Source of the DNA: a virus
Length of the DNA: 64,000 nucleotides
Reading direction: 5' to 3' (one strand)
Virus record (IMG/VR): IMGVR_UViG_3300020198_000013
Span: 1 to 64,000 of that record
The translations under genes were made by a program, and so were the position numbers. The notes beneath the pieces were generated by a model. The model was not told the origin of the DNA and did no database searches. It saw only the letters and a list, made by a program, of their open reading frames with translations. Within the stretch, counting starts at the first letter, position 1, and each line of letters begins with the position of its first letter. Positions 38,341 to 50,036 of the stretch are shown piece by piece.

Positions 38341-38914
38341 TGATCAGGTTATTGAGGCCGAAAAGTATCTTAAAAAACACAAGACTGCTGGAATTCTCAG
38401 TAAACACGATGCAATGCCAATGTATGAGCTTTATATATTGGGATATACTTTTGAAGATATATCAAAAAGATACCCATCTATCCCATATGGGAAGATACTG
38501 TTAACCGCAGCTTTGAGTGGATGGTCTAAGGATAGGGAGGTTGTCGCAGCCTCTCTTTACGATCGTATTAAAACTAGAATAGTAAGATCGACAGTTGAAC
38601 AAGTTGAGTTCCTAACAGACATGATATCTGTTTCAAATGTAGAAACCTCTGAAGAAGTTAGAAAGTATCTTAATGATCCGGTTGGAAATCCTCCACCCTC
38701 TTTTAGAATTAAAACTATAAAAGATTATCAACAAGTAATAGACATGTTGGCCCAGGTAGCTGAATCTGTTAGGGGAATGGCAAATCCATCAAACGTAAGC
38801 AACGATAACAAACAAATACCACAAAATGAAATAAAAAAAATAAGTAAGAAATCAAAATCTTCAAGTGAAGAAGCTGTAATATTAGCTGAGTTAGTAGGTG
38901 ATACAAGTGAGTAA
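38294..38914 (+). CDS. terS: Candidate terminase small subunit
   Basis: 206 residues from TTG 38294, supported by GGAG at 38282-38285. An N-terminal helix-turn-helix-like region (YELYILGYTFEDISKRYPSI, ILLTAALSGWSKDREVVAAS) precedes a central helical part (VEQVEFLTDMISVSNVETSE) and a Lys/Ser-rich tail. Small terminases bind the packaging site through such DNA-binding domains and oligomerise through the central helices. It directly precedes and overlaps the TerL gene. The assignment rests on position and overall architecture. Confidence 0.5.
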   Translation: MQKKNLTPREKYGLSNDQVIEAEKYLKKHKTAGILSKHDAMPMYELYILGYTFEDISKRYPSIPYGKILLTAALSGWSKDREVVAASLYDRIKTRIVRSTVEQVEFLTDMISVSNVETSEEVRKYLNDPVGNPPPSFRIKTIKDYQQVIDMLAQVAESVRGMANPSNVSNDNKQIPQNEIKKISKKSKSSSEEAVILAELVGDTSE

Positions 38915-41900
38915 ATGCAGTGTGCCCGGTTGTGAAAGAGTGGTTTTAGCAAAAAATTACTGCAAACAACATTATAAAAAATTCATATCAAGACCTAAGG
39001 AAAGAGCTCAAAAAGCAGCCTTGGCAAAGGTTGTTAAAGAAAATAAAGAAATAGAAATAGAAATCAAACCTAAAGAAGCGATAGAGATAAAAGATCCTCA
39101 GATAAAGAGCAATATAAAGTTAACAGCCGAGCAATTAGAGAAGATATTTTTTTCTCCCTGTAGAACTGAGCAAGAATTAAAAAATTATATTAAATTCTTT
39201 TTCGGTCTTCATCTCCCCGATTTTAAGGTATCGAGATACGCGGATACGACGCCCTTCCATGCCATTTGGGAGGTGTATGACATAACAGTAAATAAAAACA
39301 ACCCTAAAAATATCCAAGAAATTCTATATGTTGCAGGACGTGGTAGCGGGAAGTGCGTTTTGCAAGACACTGAGATTCTTACGCAAAATGGACTTAAACG
39401 TGTACAAGACGTCAAGATCGGCGATGTGGTCTGGACAGGCTGGTCCTGGAGATCAGTAGTCCAGACCTTCGACGAGGGAATCAAAGACGGAGTCACTTTA
39501 ATCACCAAGTTTATGAGCAAGCACGGCGTGTGGTCGCTCACTGGTTCTTTAAAGCATCGCGTTCAGGCACTGCATCCAGAGACCAACAAGATCGACTGGG
39601 TATACATGAAAGATCTAACTCCTGGTCAGCTAGTCTATAGATCTATAGAATCCTTGGGCCATCTGGTGGACGTTTCTTCTAAGGACTACGATCTTGGCTG
39701 GGTTGCTGGCTGCATAGTCGGCGACGGTTGTGTGGGCAGAGGAACAAACACGAATATATCTATGTGTGCAAAAGACCCAGACCAGCTTGTACACTATGTG
39801 AGTCTGATAGACAGGCACCTAGGTGTGACGATAAACGTAAATTCCAGCTCTAAGTCTTCTGCTATAAAGAATGCGTCGTCTTCTACTAAGGCGTTCAGAG
39901 ACTTCTTTAGGACGTACGTCGAGGGTGAACTCTGCTACTTCAAGAAACTAAAGACATTAGACCACAGTCCAAGCTTCTTGGCTGGATTCATCTCCGGTCT
40001 GATGGAGACCGATGGGTCCAAGGACTCGATCACTCTAGCCAACCCAGAACTCATACAGCAGATAGCCAAGATCCTCAATGTCTTCGGCGTGCACTCTGTA
40101 ATAAATAAGAAGCGGAGAAAAGCGTCGACCACAAAGTTCGTAAAAGATCACATTGTCGAGTATCACTCGGTTGAGTACAAAACCCCGCTTCCAGAGTATG
40201 TAATGCCGCTTTTCTCTAAGCGCGATGCCTTTAAGGCGCACGCCGTCAAGATGAACGAACAGTTCCGATATCCTTCTAAGCTCATAAAGTCTTTTGCGGA
40301 CCACATAAAGCAAAAATACGAGATCGCAAACGGGTACTGGCGTTTAGAGGCCGGCAAGAAAACTCATTCCGAGATCAAGTACTCTAAGGATCTCTGGGGA
40401 TCCGGCGAGAAGTCTAAAGAGTCTTATGTCTATGGCCACAAGATCGACTACTTTATAAGTCTGGCCAACCGCTTAGAAGAGCACGAGTGGGCAGAGTATC
40501 TGTCTTTCATCAGAAAGGGTTGCTACGAGACCGTAGATACCATAACGTTCGGCAAGCACTATTTCTACGATCTAGAGGTAGACGTCGATCACGCGTACTG
40601 GTCGAACGGCTTCATCAGCCATAACACTCTCGGCATGGCTATTGCAGAATTGATGGTTCTACTGCATGATCAAAGAGACGTGGTACATGTTGGCGCAATT
40701 CTTTCTCAGGCAAAAAGATGCTATGAATATCAGCAGAAGTTTTTATTAAACGATAGAATTAAACCAATCGTTATGCCTCCTAAGACGCCAGAGGCATCTA
40801 GAATTCTTGAAAGAACAACAATGGAAAGATCTACGTTTAATGTATCTGGCGAAAAGATAACATTAGAAGTTCTTCCGTGTACATTGAAAGCATTAAACGG
40901 CCCACACGTTCCACTTGTTGTAGTTGATGAGATCGATACAGTATCTGGCGAGTCTGTCAAGGCATATAAGGAAATATCTGGAATGCTTGACTCAAAAAGA
41001 GGAAAAAGACCTCTTCGTGTTGGTATTTCGACTAGAAAAACTAGATACGGTCTGATGAATCAAGCTATTGAAAATGCAGAAAAACAAGGAAGAAATGTAA
41101 GAAGATGGACTGCATTTGAGTTTACAGAAAGATGTCCAGATTCAAGATCTGGAACTTCTAAAATAGAATTATTTATTGATCAAAATTCTTTTGATGTCAG
41201 AACAAGAAATGATTATGAAAGATTAGCAACTCAAAAACAAAAAGACTATGAAAGACATGAGATGTTTGAAGGGTGCTTGAAATGTCCACTTGCACCAATA
41301 TGCTTAGGTGATGCTAAAAAACAATCTTCTAAATCATCAATGTTAAAATCGATTGATGAACTTGCTCAAAAAGTCTTATCAGAAGGACCAGATTGGGCAA
41401 TGGCTCAGCTTATGAATTTAAAACCAAGTGTAGAAGGAATTATATATAAAGAATTTGATGAAAGAACCCATGTCAAAACATGGAATCAAATGTGGCTTAT
41501 TTTAACTGGTAAAGAGTTCCCTGGCGAGTGTGATCATGATATTTTTATAAAAAAATGTCACTCAATGGGACTTCAAGCATATGCAGGAATCGACTGGGGT
41601 TGGTCTAATCCACATACTTTGGTTGTATTTTTTGTAGACAGTAGAGAAAATATATATGTAGTTAGATGCGATGGTCAAACATACATATCAAGACCGGCAT
41701 GGATGCATATAGTAAAACATAAATGGCATAATAACTATAGAATTCAATTATATTTTCCTGATATGGCAGACCCAGGTGATGCTCAGGAAATGAGAAAAAT
41801 GGGTCTTCCGACTACAACTAACTCAGAAAAATCAAATATCAATGCAGGTGTTCAAGTTATTAAAAAATGGTTAAGAACACCAGGATCCAATGAGGCCAAG

Positions 41901-42287
41901 ATATTTTTTGCAGCTGAAACATGTAAGCCAATAATACAGGAATTTCAATTATATCATTTTAAAGCAGATGCAGCTGGAAACATGACAGATGACCCAGACA
42001 CAGAACATGATCACTGGCTCGACGCATTAAGATACTCTTTAATTAATTTATTTGGTAAAAATACTATAGTATTAGGATCTGCTGGCGTTGATATGGATGT
42101 TTCTAAAATAGTTGACTCTAGAGGTCATTTTATAAAACCACCTACTCCAGAGGAGTACGCAAAAGTTAATAATATACCTTTTAATTCAGAGTATTCTACT
42201 GATAATATAGGTAAAATAGGAAGGCTATCTGAATTAGATGAAGACAGCGAACAATCTTCTGAAGGTGGCTTTCTTTGGACTATGTAA
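38907..42287 (+). CDS. terL: Terminase large subunit interrupted by an intein
   Basis: 1126 residues from GTG 38907 (AGGTGA upstream; GTG 38898 is an alternative). A Cys/His cluster at the N-terminus (CSVPGCERVVLAKNYCKQHY) resembles a small zinc finger. The ATPase Walker A VAGRGSGK|T is split after Lys by the intein (39354-40625). After splicing the host protein is ~702 residues. Further host motifs are VPLVVVDEIDTVSGES (Walker B) and the RNase H-like nuclease domain with YAGIDWGWSNPHTLVVFFVD, DMADPGDA and HDHWLDALRYSLI. TerL pumps DNA through the portal and cuts concatemers. It is active only if the intein splices. Confidence 0.9.
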   Translation: MSKCSVPGCERVVLAKNYCKQHYKKFISRPKERAQKAALAKVVKENKEIEIEIKPKEAIEIKDPQIKSNIKLTAEQLEKIFFSPCRTEQELKNYIKFFFGLHLPDFKVSRYADTTPFHAIWEVYDITVNKNNPKNIQEILYVAGRGSGKCVLQDTEILTQNGLKRVQDVKIGDVVWTGWSWRSVVQTFDEGIKDGVTLITKFMSKHGVWSLTGSLKHRVQALHPETNKIDWVYMKDLTPGQLVYRSIESLGHLVDVSSKDYDLGWVAGCIVGDGCVGRGTNTNISMCAKDPDQLVHYVSLIDRHLGVTINVNSSSKSSAIKNASSSTKAFRDFFRTYVEGELCYFKKLKTLDHSPSFLAGFISGLMETDGSKDSITLANPELIQQIAKILNVFGVHSVINKKRRKASTTKFVKDHIVEYHSVEYKTPLPEYVMPLFSKRDAFKAHAVKMNEQFRYPSKLIKSFADHIKQKYEIANGYWRLEAGKKTHSEIKYSKDLWGSGEKSKESYVYGHKIDYFISLANRLEEHEWAEYLSFIRKGCYETVDTITFGKHYFYDLEVDVDHAYWSNGFISHNTLGMAIAELMVLLHDQRDVVHVGAILSQAKRCYEYQQKFLLNDRIKPIVMPPKTPEASRILERTTMERSTFNVSGEKITLEVLPCTLKALNGPHVPLVVVDEIDTVSGESVKAYKEISGMLDSKRGKRPLRVGISTRKTRYGLMNQAIENAEKQGRNVRRWTAFEFTERCPDSRSGTSKIELFIDQNSFDVRTRNDYERLATQKQKDYERHEMFEGCLKCPLAPICLGDAKKQSSKSSMLKSIDELAQKVLSEGPDWAMAQLMNLKPSVEGIIYKEFDERTHVKTWNQMWLILTGKEFPGECDHDIFIKKCHSMGLQAYAGIDWGWSNPHTLVVFFVDSRENIYVVRCDGQTYISRPAWMHIVKHKWHNNYRIQLYFPDMADPGDAQEMRKMGLPTTTNSEKSNINAGVQVIKKWLRTPGSNEAKIFFAAETCKPIIQEFQLYHFKADAAGNMTDDPDTEHDHWLDALRYSLINLFGKNTIVLGSAGVDMDVSKIVDSRGHFIKPPTPEEYAKVNNIPFNSEYSTDNIGKIGRLSELDEDSEQSSEGGFLWTM
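39354..40625 (+). mobile_element. Intein with LAGLIDADG homing endonuclease in TerL
   Basis: 424 residues. It begins with Cys (CVLQDTEILTQNGLKRVQDV, block A). Block B is the SLKH of GSLKHRVQ. The end YDLEVDVDHAYWSNGFISHN has the terminal His-Asn, and the +1 extein residue is Thr. Two LAGLIDADG-type motifs are present: LGWVAGCIVGDG (~114-125) and FLAGFISGLMETDG (~208-221), both keeping their acidic residue. G+C (about 45-50% in sampled lines) and codon use differ sharply from the AT-rich host gene, so it was acquired horizontally and is probably mobile. Confidence 0.92.
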
Positions 42288-42317: not shown

Positions 42318-44261
42318 ATGTCATGGTTTGAAGATTTAAAAAAATCAATACAAGACCGTCTTGTAGAAGATATCGAGCAAATGACCAAAGCAGACGCAGA
42401 TAAACTTCCAGAGAAGCCACAATCAGAAAATCAAGAATCAGGTCTTGTAAGAGGTAAGGCGATATTAACAGACCCTTATTTTGAACAAGCAAGTAATAAT
42501 TATTTTCTTTCAAAAAATAAAATAAGCAGAATATCAAATAGAACTCTTAGAGACATGTCTCAAAGAGATTGGCTTGTTAGCACAATCTTACAAATAAGAG
42601 CAGATACTGTTTTAAGATTTTCAAGACGTCCAGAGCGCAGATACGATATGGGTTTTCGTGTCGTCAAAAGAGATCACAGCGAGTCATTGTCTGAACAAGA
42701 TATTGATAATATAAATATGTTGGAAAGTTATATATATAATTGTGGCAGAACTGAAAATGTCCCCAAAGGACAAGAAATGCTTTTAGGTGAATTTTTAAAA
42801 TTAATAGTTAGAGATGGTCTTACTTTTGGATATGTGGCAGTTGAAAAAGTCTTAACAAGAACCGGGGCTCTTCATCGCTTCAGACCTCTTCCTGCTGAAA
42901 CAATGTACTTAATAAATCAAGCAATCAATAAAACAGTTGTAGAAGATCAAGTTAAAACTGCAATCAATATGTATCATACTAAAAAAAGCGACAATGATCC
43001 AAGGGCGGATGGGTATCTTGCGCCTAGAGAAATAGATTATTATAAGTATGTTCAATTATCAACAGACAATAGAGTTTTAAATGCCTTTGGTGATGAAGAC
43101 ATGGTGTTTAAATTATTTAATCCACAAAACTATGCTGACTCTAATGGATATTGCATATCTGTAGTTGAGCAGGCAATCATAATGATAACAAATCATCTAA
43201 ATATAGAGGCATATAATGCTAATTTTTTTACACATGGATATGCTGCAAGGGGTATTCTTCATTTAAAAGGTGCTGTTACTCAAAATACTCTTGCTTCTTT
43301 TAGAAGACAATTTTACAACACAATATCCGGATCCGCAAATGCTTGGAGAACTCCAATTGTTGCAGGCCTTGATGATGTTCAATGGGTTCCAATGTCGGGT
43401 TCTGCACGTGAGATGGAGTATATAAATTTTAATTCTCATATAATGAGAGCTATTTGCGCACAATTTCAAATAGATCCAATAGAAGTTGGATTAGATTATC
43501 TTACAACGGCAAACGGCAGAGCAAGTGCACAAGCTAAAGAATCTGGTCAATTTAAAATAACATACTCTCGTGAACGAGGTCTAATTCCCATATTAATGCT
43601 TGTTGAAGACTTATTTAATCAAGATATCCTACCTGCTTTAGACAAAGATCTTGCAGATAAATATAAATTTAAATTTGTTGGATACACAGATGACACGGCA
43701 ATGACTGATATAAGTCTTCGTCAGGCACAGATGACAGTTTTTTCTTCAATGAATGATCTTCTTCACAATGAAGAAAAAACACAAATAAACCACCCCGCTG
43801 CAAATCTTCCATTGAATCAATCTTTTTGGAATCTTGTTGAAAAAAACATGACCCGTGGAGAGATTCGTGAATTTTTCTTTGGAGATAAGGGAGCATCTAA
43901 AAGACCAGAGTTGCAATATCTTCCATCGGATCCGGCATTTTTATCTTGGAATCAGTTAATGATGACAATTAATGTTCAACAACAACAAAAAGAAATACAA
44001 AAACAACAACAGCAACAACAGCAACAAATGCAACAACAACAAATAAAACTTCAAGAAAGTCAAGAACAAAGAGAACAAGAAGCGCATGATCATCAGATAT
44101 CTGAGTCTAAACAAGAGCAAGCAAACTCTGTTGTAAGATCTCAAGATCTTTCTAGTCTACAAGATTTGGCTAGACAATACGGTGCCACAAAAGCAACAAA
44201 CATAGGCGGAAAAGAATTAAAAAATCCAATAAATACCCTTGAAGAAATAGAAAAAAAATAA
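42318..44261 (+). CDS. Portal protein
   Basis: 647 residues, following TerL. It shows portal-type features: an N-terminal acidic helix, QRDWLVSTILQIRADTVLRF, ATYPICAL-length loop regions, VWRTP-like NAWRTPIVAGLDDVQWVPMS, and YINFNSHIMRAICAQFQIDP, the stem/wing pattern of T4 gp20 and DUF935-type portals. The C-terminal ~90 residues are Gln-rich coiled coil with near-pure Gln stretches encoded by CAA repeats. The dodecamer forms the DNA channel and nucleates head assembly. SD is AAGGGG. Position directly after TerL and before the protease supports the call. Confidence 0.85.
   Translation: MSWFEDLKKSIQDRLVEDIEQMTKADADKLPEKPQSENQESGLVRGKAILTDPYFEQASNNYFLSKNKISRISNRTLRDMSQRDWLVSTILQIRADTVLRFSRRPERRYDMGFRVVKRDHSESLSEQDIDNINMLESYIYNCGRTENVPKGQEMLLGEFLKLIVRDGLTFGYVAVEKVLTRTGALHRFRPLPAETMYLINQAINKTVVEDQVKTAINMYHTKKSDNDPRADGYLAPREIDYYKYVQLSTDNRVLNAFGDEDMVFKLFNPQNYADSNGYCISVVEQAIIMITNHLNIEAYNANFFTHGYAARGILHLKGAVTQNTLASFRRQFYNTISGSANAWRTPIVAGLDDVQWVPMSGSAREMEYINFNSHIMRAICAQFQIDPIEVGLDYLTTANGRASAQAKESGQFKITYSRERGLIPILMLVEDLFNQDILPALDKDLADKYKFKFVGYTDDTAMTDISLRQAQMTVFSSMNDLLHNEEKTQINHPAANLPLNQSFWNLVEKNMTRGEIREFFFGDKGASKRPELQYLPSDPAFLSWNQLMMTINVQQQQKEIQKQQQQQQQQMQQQQIKLQESQEQREQEAHDHQISESKQEQANSVVRSQDLSSLQDLARQYGATKATNIGGKELKNPINTLEEIEKK
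43977..44042 (+). repeat. CAA/CAG trinucleotide tract (poly-Gln)
   Basis: A run of mostly CAA codons with some CAG and ATG/AAA encodes the Gln-rich segment near the portal C-terminus. Such tracts are prone to slippage in whole codons. Confidence 0.8.
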
Positions 44262-45156: not shown

Positions 45157-45698
45157 AGATGGTAAATCAACAAAAAACAAATCAAATACAAAGAATTGAA
45201 ACTTTAGAAAAACATATTGAAAATTTATCAATGGCACTTAGAGTAAACCAAATACTATTAAAGCAAACAATAGACCAATTGCAGCCAATGCAATCAGAGC
45301 TAAAGACAAACACTAGTATACTTAGTGATTTTCAATATAGGGTTCTTGGATTGCAAAAATATCTTCCAATAAATAACGAGGAGCTAACTTCTATTGTCAA
45401 TGAATTAAAATCAACAGACTGGGATCGAGCATCTGACAAAGATGATTTAGATAAAAAACTTGAAAAAAAAGAATTTGTTTCATCAAAAAATGACATAGTT
45501 ATAATATCTTCTGTTGTATTGGAAGGAGAAAATGTTAAAGGCGGTATATTTAGATCAAAGATAAAATTAGAAGAAGCAGGCCAAGGTCTTGTTGATGTTC
45601 TTTTAAATAAAAAAGTAGGAGAAACAGTAGAGGCTGTGTTAAACGATGAGAAACATTTAGTAAGTTTATTAGGTGTTAGGACTACGAATTTAGAATGA
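45153..45698 (+). CDS. Hypothetical coiled-coil protein
   Basis: 181 residues, overlapping the kinase-like gene by 4 bp (ATGA) with AAGGAG at 45142-45147. The first ~75 residues form a coiled coil (QRIETLEKHIENLSMALRVN ...). The C-terminal ~90 residues are beta-rich and contain VVLEGENVKGGIFRSKIKLE and VGETVEAVLNDEKHLVSLLG. Position in the head module suggests a virion assembly protein. No family was recognised. Confidence 0.55.
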   Translation: MKMVNQQKTNQIQRIETLEKHIENLSMALRVNQILLKQTIDQLQPMQSELKTNTSILSDFQYRVLGLQKYLPINNEELTSIVNELKSTDWDRASDKDDLDKKLEKKEFVSSKNDIVIISSVVLEGENVKGGIFRSKIKLEEAGQGLVDVLLNKKVGETVEAVLNDEKHLVSLLGVRTTNLE

Positions 45699-46111
45699 AT
45701 GATACTAAAGAAAGATTTGATAAAAAATGCCCACGTCAGTTGAAAGACTATCCTAAGGGATATTGTCCATTAGCTGTTATTCGCCTAAAATGGCTTAGAT
45801 CTCTTGGTAGAGAGCCAACTGAAGAAGAAGAACTCAATGCTCCTGGGTGCAATTGGGCAATTAATCATCAAATGTCTAGTTATTGTTGGTTTGTTTATGA
45901 AACAAAATTTATGCCAGATTCTCCTGTATCCGATGTTGAAATAGCTGCTGCTTTAAACATTTCTATAGAAACAGTAAAACAAGTTGCAGATTCTGCAATG
46001 TCAAAAGTGCAATCTTCTGAACTCGTGGTAGAACTAAAGAAGACTTTAGACGGGGAGTCTATCGTTGATGAAGTTCTCGGAGTTGAAGATGAAGCAATCT
46101 ATTGCGAATAA
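45695..46111 (+). CDS. Protein with helix-turn-helix, sigma region 4-like
   Basis: 138 residues, overlapping the previous stop. Cys residues at KKCPRQLKDYPKGYCPLAVI and PGCNWAINHQMSSYCWFVYE could bind metal. The segment SDVEIAAALNISIETVKQVA is a good helix-turn-helix of the sigma region 4/LuxR type. It lies in the head module between portal and protease. Late transcription control or a structural role are both possible. Another gene in this window (52702) has a sigma region 2-like segment. Confidence 0.5.
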   Translation: MNDTKERFDKKCPRQLKDYPKGYCPLAVIRLKWLRSLGREPTEEEELNAPGCNWAINHQMSSYCWFVYETKFMPDSPVSDVEIAAALNISIETVKQVADSAMSKVQSSELVVELKKTLDGESIVDEVLGVEDEAIYCE

Positions 46112-46403: not shown

Positions 46404-47285
46404 ATGGCTACTAAATTTGATGCGGTTGCAGGATCTGAGTTAAGAGACATTCAAGGAGAAATTCTAGATGTCAAAGGCGCAGATATTTCAGAATTAGAAG
46501 CTGGTCAAGGAATTGTTAACGACAACCATAGCAATAAGCTACCCGATGTCATCGGTAGAGTAACTGGTGCAAAAAAAATATTTAAAGTAGAAGATTGCGA
46601 AAGTGATCGTCAAAAATATTTTTGGAATAAAATAAAAGCTCCATATATATATGTTACAGGTGAACTTTTTGACGATGAAGACCATAGATCAGCAAGGGCA
46701 GCGGCGGCTATATTAAGACATCAGCACAAAACAGATTCTCCACTTAAGCTAAAGTGCTCCGTAGAAGGAGGTATAGTAGAAAGAGGCGAGAAAGACGATA
46801 GAATTTTAAAAAGAACAAAAATTAAAGGTTTAGCATTGACCTTTACTCCAGCCAATAATGCAACTCTTGTTGAGGGAGTTGATTTAAATAAAAGCAATAA
46901 TCCACAAGAATTTGAATTAATAAAATCAATATCTCATCTAGCGAGAAAAGATGTTCCCTCTTTTATAGAAATGGCTGATACATTATCTGAAATTAAAATA
47001 TTATCAAATGTAGAAAAAATAAAAGAAACAATATTAACTTTAAAAAAAAATAACATAAATAAAGCATTAGTCGCTGGATATGGCTCAGCAGGATCTCCGA
47101 CAAGCCTAACTGGCGGCGGCGTTTTTCAAACTGAATCTATTGATACAAAATCAAATAAAAATCAGTATATAGAATGTCCATCATGTGGTAAAGAGCAACC
47201 ATATGTTGTATATCAAGTTAAATGTCGATCTTGTAATAAGCATTTTCCATTTGACACATTAGCTAAGTTCTTTATAAATAAATAG
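46404..47285 (+). CDS. Prohead maturation protease with capsid-like peptide and zinc ribbon
   Basis: 293 residues. The first ~165 residues resemble T4 gp21/HK97-type (S78) proteases, with His in VNDNHSNKLPDVIGRV (~41), Ser in LKLKCSVEGG (~118) and KGLALTFTPANNATLVEG closing the core. A helical linker leads to residues 219-247, which are 22/29 identical to residues 27-55 of the major capsid protein (both contain NKALVAGYG and QTES). The C-terminal 40 residues form a zinc ribbon (CPSCGK ... CRSCNK). The enzyme should cleave scaffold and capsid N-termini. The shared segment may be its own processing site. Confidence 0.8.
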   Translation: MATKFDAVAGSELRDIQGEILDVKGADISELEAGQGIVNDNHSNKLPDVIGRVTGAKKIFKVEDCESDRQKYFWNKIKAPYIYVTGELFDDEDHRSARAAAAILRHQHKTDSPLKLKCSVEGGIVERGEKDDRILKRTKIKGLALTFTPANNATLVEGVDLNKSNNPQEFELIKSISHLARKDVPSFIEMADTLSEIKILSNVEKIKETILTLKKNNINKALVAGYGSAGSPTSLTGGGVFQTESIDTKSNKNQYIECPSCGKEQPYVVYQVKCRSCNKHFPFDTLAKFFINK

Positions 47286-47331
47286 TTGTAATTAATTGAT
47301 ATTATTAAAGTCACGTTTAACTATAATAATA

Positions 47332-47340
47332 TGGTATATT
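47332..47340 (+). promoter_or_regulatory. Extended -10-like promoter before decoration gene
   Basis: TGGTATATT lies 45 bp upstream of the next start codon in an AT-rich intergenic space (47286-47385). The downstream genes are among the most highly expressed in a phage head module, which fits a dedicated promoter. Confidence 0.35.
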
Positions 47341-47385
47341 TAAGTATTGTCGTGGATGGTTTGCATTTGATAAAAGGAGCAAAAC

Positions 47386-47769
47386 ATGGCTAATTCTGTC
47401 CAGGTTCTTGATAAAGTGGCACGAAACCTCAATCAGCTAGGCGTTCCTGCTGTTCGTGGGGCTTCTTCAGTATCGGCTGCAGGACTTACTATATCTTATG
47501 TAAGCGCCTCGGTCCAATCTCCAATGGGTGGCGTTGACAAAGATGCTTCTCCATTTCTTGGTATTGGCGTTGCTGCGCCAGGTAAATTAAAAATCAAAGG
47601 TGCTGCTGGTGAAAATTCACTTGCTGCAATTTTGGACACTGCAGCGGCGGTAAATGTTCTTGCTGTTTGTTCTCGTTTTGCTAACAATCTCCAGATCGAA
47701 GCTGGTGATTCGGCATCAGTTCTTGTAGAACTCGCTGGTCATACAGATCTTTTGATGGTTGGTGAATAA
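47386..47769 (+). CDS. Probable head decoration or vertex protein
   Basis: 127 residues, Ala/Gly/Val-rich and beta-type (SVSAAGLTISYVSASVQSPM; GKLKIKGAAGENSLAAILDT; LQIEAGDSASVLVELAGHTD). Codon use and G+C (about 45%) resemble the capsid gene, as expected of an abundant virion protein. It lies between protease and scaffold. SD AAAAGGAG is strong. A decoration/cement protein is the best guess; a small tail or core protein is possible. No specific family was recognised. Confidence 0.45.
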   Translation: MANSVQVLDKVARNLNQLGVPAVRGASSVSAAGLTISYVSASVQSPMGGVDKDASPFLGIGVAAPGKLKIKGAAGENSLAAILDTAAAVNVLAVCSRFANNLQIEAGDSASVLVELAGHTDLLMVGE

Positions 47770-47787
47770 TATAAAAGGAGTTTTGCT

Positions 47788-48570
47788 ATGACTACAAAAT
47801 TAAGCAAAAGTCTCGCCGATCTCATTGATGAAACTCTAGCTGAAATCGAAGAACTAAAAAAGTCTGATCGTTTTTCTGCTGAAGAAATCGAACTTGGAGA
47901 AAAGTCAGCACAAGGCGGAATGGCTAAGGGCGACGAAGAGGACGATGAGAAAGACGAAGACGAAGACGAAGACGAAGAAGCTAAGAAAGCAGAAGACGAC
48001 GAAGACGAAGACGACGAAGAGCATGAAGAAGAAGATGAAGCCAAAAAAGCTGAAGAAGAATGCGAAAAAGCAGAAGCTGAAATGGCCAAGGCTGAAGATG
48101 AGTGCGAGAAAGCAGAGCATGCTTATTCAAAAGCGCTTAAAAAGCGTGAGATGTGTAAAGCAGAACTTGAGCATAAACTCAAGAAAAAAGAGATGAAAAA
48201 ACCTCACTGGGCTAAGAAATCAGAAGGTGTCAATCTCATGGTCAAAGAAGAAAAAGAGATGAAGAAGTCACTTGCAAAATCAATTGACGAAAGAATCTCA
48301 CCTCTTGAGACCAAACTTTCTCAAGTTTTAGATGTTGTTAAACAACTTGCAGATACCCCATTCCCACAGCGTGGACACACGTATCGTCAAATCCAGCCTC
48401 TTGCAAAAAGCACTGGAGATGTAGAACCTCTTAATAAGACAGCTGTTCTTAATAAACTTCTTGATCTTAAGAAGACTGGAACAGATGTCGATGCTGCAGA
48501 TGTGATTCGTGTAGAAGTTGGTGGAAATGGTGATCTTAACGAAGTTGCTAACAAATATGGAATTAAATAA
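47788..48570 (+). CDS. Scaffolding/prohead core protein
   Basis: 260 residues. After a helical start (SLADLIDETLAEIEELKKSD) there are ~130 residues of very acidic and Lys-rich coiled coil with DEDEDEDEE and AKKAEE runs. A helical C-terminal third contains SISPLETKLSQVLD-like heptads and LNKLLDLKKTGTDVDAADVI. Position directly before the major capsid gene and the coiled-coil composition match scaffold/core proteins such as T4 gp22, which are degraded by the prohead protease. The low-complexity DNA gives long spurious reverse frames. Confidence 0.75.
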   Translation: MTTKLSKSLADLIDETLAEIEELKKSDRFSAEEIELGEKSAQGGMAKGDEEDDEKDEDEDEDEEAKKAEDDEDEDDEEHEEEDEAKKAEEECEKAEAEMAKAEDECEKAEHAYSKALKKREMCKAELEHKLKKKEMKKPHWAKKSEGVNLMVKEEKEMKKSLAKSIDERISPLETKLSQVLDVVKQLADTPFPQRGHTYRQIQPLAKSTGDVEPLNKTAVLNKLLDLKKTGTDVDAADVIRVEVGGNGDLNEVANKYGIK

Positions 48571-48581
48571 GGAGAAAAATA

Positions 48582-50036
48582 ATGTACGCTGACGCTTTTA
48601 ATCAGATTATGCAGGGAATTGAACAAGGAGTGGTCTCTCAAGAAGAGATTGAAAACCTTAATAAGGCACTAGTAGCGGGATACGGTGGTGCTGGTCGTCC
48701 TACTGATCTAACCTATGGCGGTGTTATTCAGACTGAGTCACTTGAATCAACTCTTAAAGTTGTTACATTTGACATGAAGAATCTTAAACTCTGGCCAGCA
48801 ATCACAATCGACAAGGCTTATAACCTATTCGAACAATATAACCGTCTTGTTGGATATGGTTCAGATACTTCGCCCTATATTGCTGAAGGCGGAGCTGGAC
48901 AAGAATCAGATTCAACATATGTACGTGACGGACAGCGCATCGTGTTCTTCAGCAAGCGTCGTAAGGTTTCGCATCAGATGACTCTTGTTCGCACAACCGT
49001 TGGAGACGTTGTAGCTCAACAGGCTAAAGAAGGAACAATGGACCTTCTTAAAGATGTTGAACGTGAACTATACTGGGGACATGCTCACTTTGCAGATGCA
49101 TCTGGTGCTCAATCAGGTGCAACAGCTGATCTTCCAGTTAATTCACTTGCCATGAATGGCCTTCTACAACAAATCCTTAAGGGTGATCGTGATAGCCAAT
49201 TTACTTCAAAAGATTTTGAAGGTTGGGGCGCTGAGTCATCATCTGTTGTGAAGGATCTTGCTGGTCTTTCTTTTGCACAAGACGATGTTGAAGAACTTGC
49301 AGTTCGTGCTCTTGAAAATTTCGGAGCTCCAGATCAGCTTCACGCTGAGCCCGCTGCTGTTTCTACATTCGTTCGTCAATTTTATCCACAGTTCCGTTCT
49401 GAACCAGGTCTTGCTGGTCAAACTGTTGGTTATGACGTAGCAAATGTCACCACTACTGCAGGAAAAATTGCACTTAAACCAAGTCTTTTCCTACGTCCGC
49501 GCCAACAAGTTCGTCCAGCAGCTGCTTCAGCTTCTGCTCCTTCTGTTGCGGGTCTAAGTGTTTCTGGAGCTGCTGCAGGATCAGGATCAGCTCTTTCAGC
49601 TGGTAGTTATCATTATGCAGTAACTTTTGTTAATGACTTTGGCGAATCAGCTCCAATTTTAACTTCAGCACCAGTTTCAGTTACAGCTGGACAAGTTGTT
49701 GAATTGACTCTAGCTGGTTCTGTTCCATCTTCTGTCAAGCACATGAAGGTATATCGTGCCGCAAGTGGAGCTGCAGCTTCAACGGCGCAGTTTATCTCAA
49801 ATCATCGCGTGGGACTCTCCGCTATTAAAGATGCTGGTGCCAAGCGCCCTGGTCTTGGTGAAGCATTCCTTCTTGATATGCGTGCTGAAACAATGAAGTT
49901 TAAGCAACTTGCTCCTCTTGCTAAGATGAATCTTGCTGTGGTCACAACTGCACTTGAGTTTCTCTTGCTCATGTACGGAGCACTATTTGTTTACGCACCG
50001 CGATTCAATTGCGTAATGCGAAATGTTGGTAAGTAA
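48582..50036 (+). CDS. Major capsid protein
   Basis: 484 residues. An N-terminal ~50-residue arm ending NKALVAGYGGAGRPTDLTYG ... QTES is typical of T4-like/large-phage capsid proteins, where it is cleaved. A HK97-fold body follows (NLFEQYNRLVGYGSDTSPYI, KRRKVSHQMTLVRTTVGDVV, KDVERELYWGHAHFADASGA). Residues ~310-420 look like an inserted Ig/FN3-like domain (SAGSYHYAVTFVNDFGESAP, KHMKVYRAASGA) that may be exposed on the capsid surface. Codon use is shifted to higher G+C. SD AAGGAG precedes the start, and a strong terminator follows the gene. Confidence 0.88.
   Translation: MYADAFNQIMQGIEQGVVSQEEIENLNKALVAGYGGAGRPTDLTYGGVIQTESLESTLKVVTFDMKNLKLWPAITIDKAYNLFEQYNRLVGYGSDTSPYIAEGGAGQESDSTYVRDGQRIVFFSKRRKVSHQMTLVRTTVGDVVAQQAKEGTMDLLKDVERELYWGHAHFADASGAQSGATADLPVNSLAMNGLLQQILKGDRDSQFTSKDFEGWGAESSSVVKDLAGLSFAQDDVEELAVRALENFGAPDQLHAEPAAVSTFVRQFYPQFRSEPGLAGQTVGYDVANVTTTAGKIALKPSLFLRPRQQVRPAAASASAPSVAGLSVSGAAAGSGSALSAGSYHYAVTFVNDFGESAPILTSAPVSVTAGQVVELTLAGSVPSSVKHMKVYRAASGAAASTAQFISNHRVGLSAIKDAGAKRPGLGEAFLLDMRAETMKFKQLAPLAKMNLAVVTTALEFLLLMYGALFVYAPRFNCVMRNVGK

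Follow-up and report, generated by a model that had tools for sequence, protein, structure and literature searches.

The proteases that mature phage heads have been described in several systems, and some of these enzymes are themselves processed. The T4 protease gp21 cuts after L/I-x-E (PMC9026906), and gp245 of phage SPN3US cuts after A-x-E and sheds a C-terminal propeptide of 64 residues (PMC10052503). The protease gp175 of phiKZ is also processed C-terminally (PMC9026906), and the purpose of the removed parts has been stated to be open (PMC9026906, PMC5694885). In this work, the head genes of the virus record IMGVR_UViG_3300020198_000013 are described and discussed, based on positions 1 to 64,000 of that record (the window, the whole stretch of 64,000 nucleotides that was analyzed). 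In this virus, the tail of the prohead protease contains a peptide that is also found in the N-terminal arm of the major capsid protein, and the possible roles of this shared peptide in cleavage and in enzyme loading are weighed below.

Residues 219-247 of the protease and residues 27-55 of the capsid protein are identical at 22 of 29 positions. This match had been noted in a first-pass annotation of the DNA, and both the open reading frames (ORFs) and the coordinates proved right when the frames were re-read. Comparison of the whole protease with the whole capsid protein by BLASTP resulted in 51.6 bits (E 9e-12), with a weak extension upstream to protease residues 191-248 and capsid residues 3-56. 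The local alignment score was 123, whereas 2000 shuffles averaged 35 and never exceeded 68. In addition, a tblastn search with the capsid protein against its own 70-kb virus record gave the protease as the single other match. Outside the shared peptide the two proteins are unrelated, as the annotation had also stated, and belong to the separate families phrog_1028 (protease) and phrog_752 (capsid). The protease tail carries a copy of the capsid N-terminal arm peptide.

Looking for the peptide in the proteases of related phages, as suggested earlier, was fruitful. Searches by tblastn with the window protease matched Myxococcus phage Mx1 and Herelleviridae, and searches with the window capsid matched Herelleviridae, Mx1 and Pseudomonas phage Touem01. 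A protease-capsid copy, with different wording, is present in SPO1, Listeria phage P100, Staphylococcus phage 812, other Herelleviridae, Mx1 and Touem01-type phages, the last being phages of Gram-negatives. The shared peptide reads KAMEAGNFNAAPSTLQGGSALQSES in the protease and KAMEAGNFNAKPSTLVQGSAMQIED in the capsid of Mx1, KSWTTGHGTTPDTQVNAGALRRESL and KSFTTGYGITPDTQTDAGALRREFL in P100, KSLEAGYGSDMANLSGGSAMRMQSL and KSLQAGYGSDMNDLSGGSALRIQSL in Touem01, and KSLEAGYEVDPEKMEGGDVFRKESL and KALEAGHTVNPLDLEGGGAFRVESL in SPO1, respectively. The protease tails of SPO1 and P100 match the major head protein profile phrog_752. The matches of the P100 protease to the PDB below 0.001 are to capsid N-arms only, and its Pfam S78 match stops at K170, which is the first residue of the copy. 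A weak copy at the correct position is found in Thermus phage Lalka27b, and the copy is degraded in Aerococcus phage AVP, Morganella phage Mecenats66 and two Lactobacillus phages. Comparison of protease and capsid gave no significant copy in HK97, T4, Bacteroides phage DAC19, Chryseobacterium phage MA9V-3 and MT835500. In MA9V-3 (L006 6195-7793), the protease and a scaffold-like sequence are joined in one ORF of 532 amino acids (aa) without the copy, which would be expected if fusion to the scaffold removed the need for a docking peptide. DAC19 and MT835500 have neither the copy nor such a fusion. Two places matched by the SPO1 protease (MZ501262.1 124197-124940 and OQ420427.1 9150-9872; H165 and H210) carry the label major capsid protein in their records. 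The shared peptide may be the reason, and the finding may matter to annotators. No earlier report of the protease-capsid similarity was found in the open-access literature, which is weak evidence as most subscription journals were outside the search, and priority of the finding is not established.

The two copies differ at the codon level. In the window, third positions are equal in 8 of the 22 codons of identical residues, and in five phages the same residues are encoded by different codons in the two copies, as judged from counts without a formal test. Codon choice has diverged while the residues were kept, indicating that the copy is old and under selection. Recent duplication or gene conversion was rejected because of these codon differences, and the transfer from capsid to protease proposed in the first-pass annotation does not hold as a recent event; the copy is an old feature matched by lineage. 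For the lineage of the window, 80 capsid loci and 80 protease loci were used, resulting in 70 distinct proteases whose 3' end is intact. The peptide is kept in 69 of these (68 match a strict pattern, and L127 has KALSAGVG), and the lone exception, L157, is a truncated frame of 227 aa. A Cys4 ribbon follows in 65 of the 70 by a strict pattern, and identity per column is 0.64 in the peptide versus 0.43 in the preceding linker. Alternatively, part of the capsid gene may long ago have been duplicated into the protease gene and have persisted there as a neutral relic. A duplication would leave a longer similarity of the kind observed in SPO1, EalM132, LysYB1 and Goe26, where it spans 49-67 residues, and is likely to be the origin of the copy. 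A lack of function is not likely, since residues were kept while codons diverged and the peptide persists in those 69 proteases, so that the neutral explanation is given very little credence.

Lineage matching was judged by pairing tests of the short peptides in 23 phages from nine author-defined groups. Of the 362,880 group pairings, none but the true one attained the sum of the own-group protease-capsid scores. The protease copy of 18 of the 23 phages resembles the own capsid more closely than it resembles the protease copy of any other group. Phages of the same group match one another's capsids about equally well. At the level of these peptide comparisons, the wording is matched by lineage and not by individual phage. 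The capsid of L127 is the sole lineage capsid in the set without the tyrosine of AGYG (AGAG), and its protease has also lost this tyrosine (AGVG), which is suggestive as a single co-change.

The shared peptide begins at a bond between K and either A or S (K|A or K|S, the bar marking the bond). In PDB entries 9row, 9rox and 9roz, the capsid chain of 439 residues starts at S25 and its start is identical to the phage 812 capsid, indicating that the deposited form begins after the lysine in VVK|SFQTGYG (K24|S25), where the shared peptide starts. The homologous K28 of the window capsid is invariant in seven distant capsids. In 24 scaffolds, K-S occurs 188 times versus 66 expected, while the reversed dipeptide is near expectation in most of them. 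In 80% of the scaffold K-S sites, versus a background of 20%, the residue two before K (P3) is hydrophobic (one of L, I, V, M and F), and the same holds for 56/56 lineage protease copies and 61/61 lineage capsids. From these patterns we infer the processing motif [LIVMF]-x-K|[SA]. In the window scaffold, [LIVMF]-x-K-[SA] is found 7 times versus 1.1 expected (p 0.002). The window protease has exactly three motif sites, K163|S164, K174|S175 and K220|A221, all of which are conserved: among 42 relatives, K is present in 42 and S in 38 at site 163/164, and K in 37 and S in 41 at site 174/175. K163|S164 lies just beyond the predicted catalytic domain, and because this site and K174|S175 are upstream of the copy, removal of the tail need not rely on the copied site alone.

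The first-pass annotation had proposed a processing site common to both proteins, by analogy with T4-like phages. A shared site is well supported for the capsid by the 812-type N-terminus and the motif, and plausible for the protease, but it would be located at the start of the peptide, with the window capsid predicted to be cut at K28|A29 and the protease predicted to cleave itself at K220|A221. With these bonds at the very start, most of the shared peptide is downstream and QTES is not the site. The T4 analogy did not survive either, since the relatives are of the SPO1/Herelleviridae type, T4 and HK97 show no copy and the inferred motif is not L/I-x-E; T4-like processing at QTES was rejected on the motif enrichment together with the 812-type N-terminus. 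The peptide could also be a cleavage site only, in which both proteins need extended recognition around the same bond without docking or inhibition. The bond and motif common to both proteins fit this explanation, but most conserved residues are far downstream of the bond, dozens of scaffold sites have the short motif alone, and the two other conserved K|S sites of the protease have no such extension, making it an improbable account. As the scaffold sites carry the short motif only, recognition by the active site does not account for the approximately 25 conserved, lineage-matched residues downstream of the bond, which suggest another binding function. Most likely, this stretch docks to a partner common to both proteins.

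The architecture of the protease is relevant to how such a peptide could act. The Pfam Peptidase_S78 profile gave no match to the window protease, whereas it matches the proteases of SPO1, P100 and 812. H42 and S119 are invariant in six distant relatives and 42 lineage relatives. The AlphaFold2 (AF2) model of the protease has herpesvirus assemblins as its top PDB matches (4v07, E 3e-4), although whole-chain TM-scores are low, and it also matches viral prohead proteases. The predicted local distance difference test (pLDDT) values are mostly 80-96 in the catalytic domain, and approximately 90 in the Cys4 ribbon, where the cysteines C258, C261, C274 and C277 are invariant in the 42 aligned relatives; Pfam ribbon matches for the C-terminus are all below cut-off. 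By its phrog_1028 match and its predicted structure, the protein is a head maturation protease of the assemblin fold with predicted activity. The capsid-arm copy is disordered between these two ordered domains (pLDDT <50 over 222-249), as expected for a linear motif. In the capsid model, mean pLDDT is 47 and the fold is confident only at aa ~321-420. The mostly stranded fold of this part (49542-49841) and its similarity to other virion proteins suggest that an Ig-like domain is inserted here.

The linker between the catalytic domain and the copy accepts large inserts in the lineage, although the window has none. Five proteases of 900-1007 aa (L020, L027, L047, L063 and L092) contain HEAT or LRV repeats in the linker. 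Many lineage proteases of ~550 aa carry a linker domain; that of L060 (7860-8285) weakly resembles SLT transglycosylase, below the Pfam cut-off, and a Pfam search of four other linker domains of the ~550-aa type gave no match. Provided that cleavage takes place at the copied site, the inserted domains could be cargo that the enzyme carries into the head. These inserts also bear on the main rival explanation, a built-in pseudosubstrate. Here, the tail copy would sit in the substrate cleft or at an exosite, either of its own protease or of a neighboring one, and hold the enzyme inactive until the many real capsid arms of the closed prohead displace it. The copy resembles a substrate and has the predicted bond at its start, and the active site of T4 gp21 is blocked by the N-terminal region until the enzyme is activated (PMC9958956). 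The blocking part of gp21 is however N-terminal, and a tight self-block would less easily tolerate the linker inserts of the lineage, which run to hundreds of residues. In the AF2 model, the peptide is disordered and not placed in the active site, although the monomer run is a weak test. A pseudosubstrate brake is considered unlikely.

We lean, with somewhat more than even confidence, towards two jobs in one peptide, in which the copy combines the same scissile bond with a docking segment. The precursor would consist of a catalytic domain with the assemblin fold, followed by one or two release sites of the K|S type, a linker that varies in content, the arm copy with K|A or K|S at its head, and finally a small domain at the C-terminus, in the window the Cys4 ribbon. 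The start of the copy would be the scissile bond that is also cut in the capsid, with a motif that is also abundant in the scaffold, so that the enzyme would shed its own tail while trimming the shell and digesting the scaffold. In the window, a cut at K220|A221 would take off the ribbon tail. The approximately 25 conserved residues past the bond would bind the partner to which the capsid arm also binds, and the scaffold and the inner surface of the shell are the likeliest candidates. This binding would be the ticket of the enzyme into the assembling head, and the K|A cut would then free it. The data suggest one shared recognition peptide that marks the cut and is likely to dock the enzyme within the head as it assembles; targeting to the prohead, which the first-pass annotation had also raised, is compatible with the observations.

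Several points weigh against this two-job reading. Within the lineage of the window there is no residual pair-by-pair co-variation (partial r -0.07), and the related Bacteroidota-type phages DAC19, MA9V-3 and MT835500 manage without the copy. The AF2 monomer model shows no docking of the tail peptide, in a run that cannot test binding to the capsid, the scaffold or a second protease. Also, the S25 chain start in 9row, 9rox and 9roz is what the depositors entered, and the scaffold, the inner shell surface and a protease exosite are not separated as partners by the data. In its broadest form, the proposal is that a wide group of tailed phages, to which all sampled subfamilies of Herelleviridae belong, uses the lineage-matched capsid-arm tail as a removable capsid-mimic ticket, which loads the enzyme, and sometimes large fused domains, and times its release by a cut at the same bond. 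This generalization is tentative, and we hold it at a little less than even confidence. The predicted motif [LIVMF]-x-K|[SA] would cover a large group that includes therapy and food-safety phages, and because the laboratory phage SPO1 carries the peptide shared by enzyme and substrate, its role can be tested with point mutants and reporter fusions.

The features of the head region are listed in Table 1. The window capsid is of the SPO1 type, with 31% identity over 99% to the Goe26 capsid. The portal-protease-scaffold-capsid order of SPO1 and P100 is present, with extra ORFs between portal and protease and ahead of the scaffold. With approximately 30% identity, in a comparison that covers head genes only, the window phage was not placed in Herelleviridae.

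Table 1. Head genes and peptide features of IMGVR_UViG_3300020198_000013 (window coordinates)
Feature	Coordinates	Strand	Basis or remark
Portal protein	42318..44261	+	Pfam Phage_portal E 6e-16; phrog_12
Prohead (head maturation) protease, 293 aa	46404..47285	+	phrog_1028 E 1e-15; assemblin-like AF2 model
Protease catalytic domain, aa 1-158	46404..46877	+	H42 and S119 invariant
Predicted release site K163|S164, protease	46890..46895	+	Conserved; fits [LIVMF]-x-K|[SA]
Predicted site K174|S175, protease	46923..46928	+	Conserved in relatives
Capsid-arm copy, protease tail aa 219-247	47058..47144	+	Predicted cut K220|A221 at 47061-47066
Cys4 zinc-ribbon-like domain, protease C258 to C277	47175..47234	+	Invariant cysteines; ordered in AF2
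127-aa ORF between protease and scaffold, perhaps decoration protein	47386..47769	+	Position only
Scaffold-like acidic protein, many K-S/K-A sites	47788..48570	+	SPO1-like gene order; motif excess
Major capsid protein, 484 aa	48582..50036	+	phrog_752 E 1e-58; PDB 9vel Gp6.1 E 1e-54
Capsid N-terminal arm peptide, aa 27-55	48660..48746	+	Predicted cut K28|A29 at 48663-48668

The 127-aa ORF gave no family match in Pfam and phrog profile searches. Upstream of the portal gene, the ORF of the terminase large subunit (38898-42287, 1129 aa) seems to contain an intein of the LAGLIDADG type, with a LAGLIDADG match above the Pfam cut-off and an intein splicing match below it. In the interval between portal and protease, an ORF of 138 aa (45695-46111) has weak matches to sigma-70 regions 3/4, below cut-off.

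Among known systems, SPO1 (gp3.2, gp3.3 and gp6.1) and other Herelleviridae have their protease and capsid families (phrog_1028 and phrog_752) in common with the window, as well as a capsid-arm copy in the protease tail, a K-S-rich scaffold and the same gene order. The window protease differs in ending in a Cys4 ribbon, whereas the Herelleviridae enzymes end in a small C-terminal region, and the 127-aa ORF between protease and scaffold is unlike SPO1 and the other Herelleviridae. The closest named protease is that of Mx1, with 34% identity to the window protease and a match that runs through the copy; unlike the window protease, it continues for ~950 residues after the copy and has no ribbon. 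The Mx1 ORF (L001 4003-7722) is 1239 aa long, and the residues after its copy gave no Pfam or NCBIfam match. The herpesvirus assemblins resemble the AF2-predicted fold of the window protease. In assemblin, the catalytic domain is also followed by cleavable sites, but cleavage occurs at A|S and not at K|S, and we know of no capsid-arm copy in assemblin. T4 offers a further likeness in gp21 and the capsid targeting sequence, as its head proteins have removable peptides and cargo enters the head by means of the targeting sequence (PMC9026906, PMC9958956). In SPN3US gp245 and phiKZ gp175, a C-terminal propeptide is removed by the enzyme itself (PMC10052503, PMC9026906), and a counterpart in the window is predicted from K163|S164, K174|S175 and K220|A221. 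The loss of the gp245 propeptide is a precedent for a protease tail that is shed.

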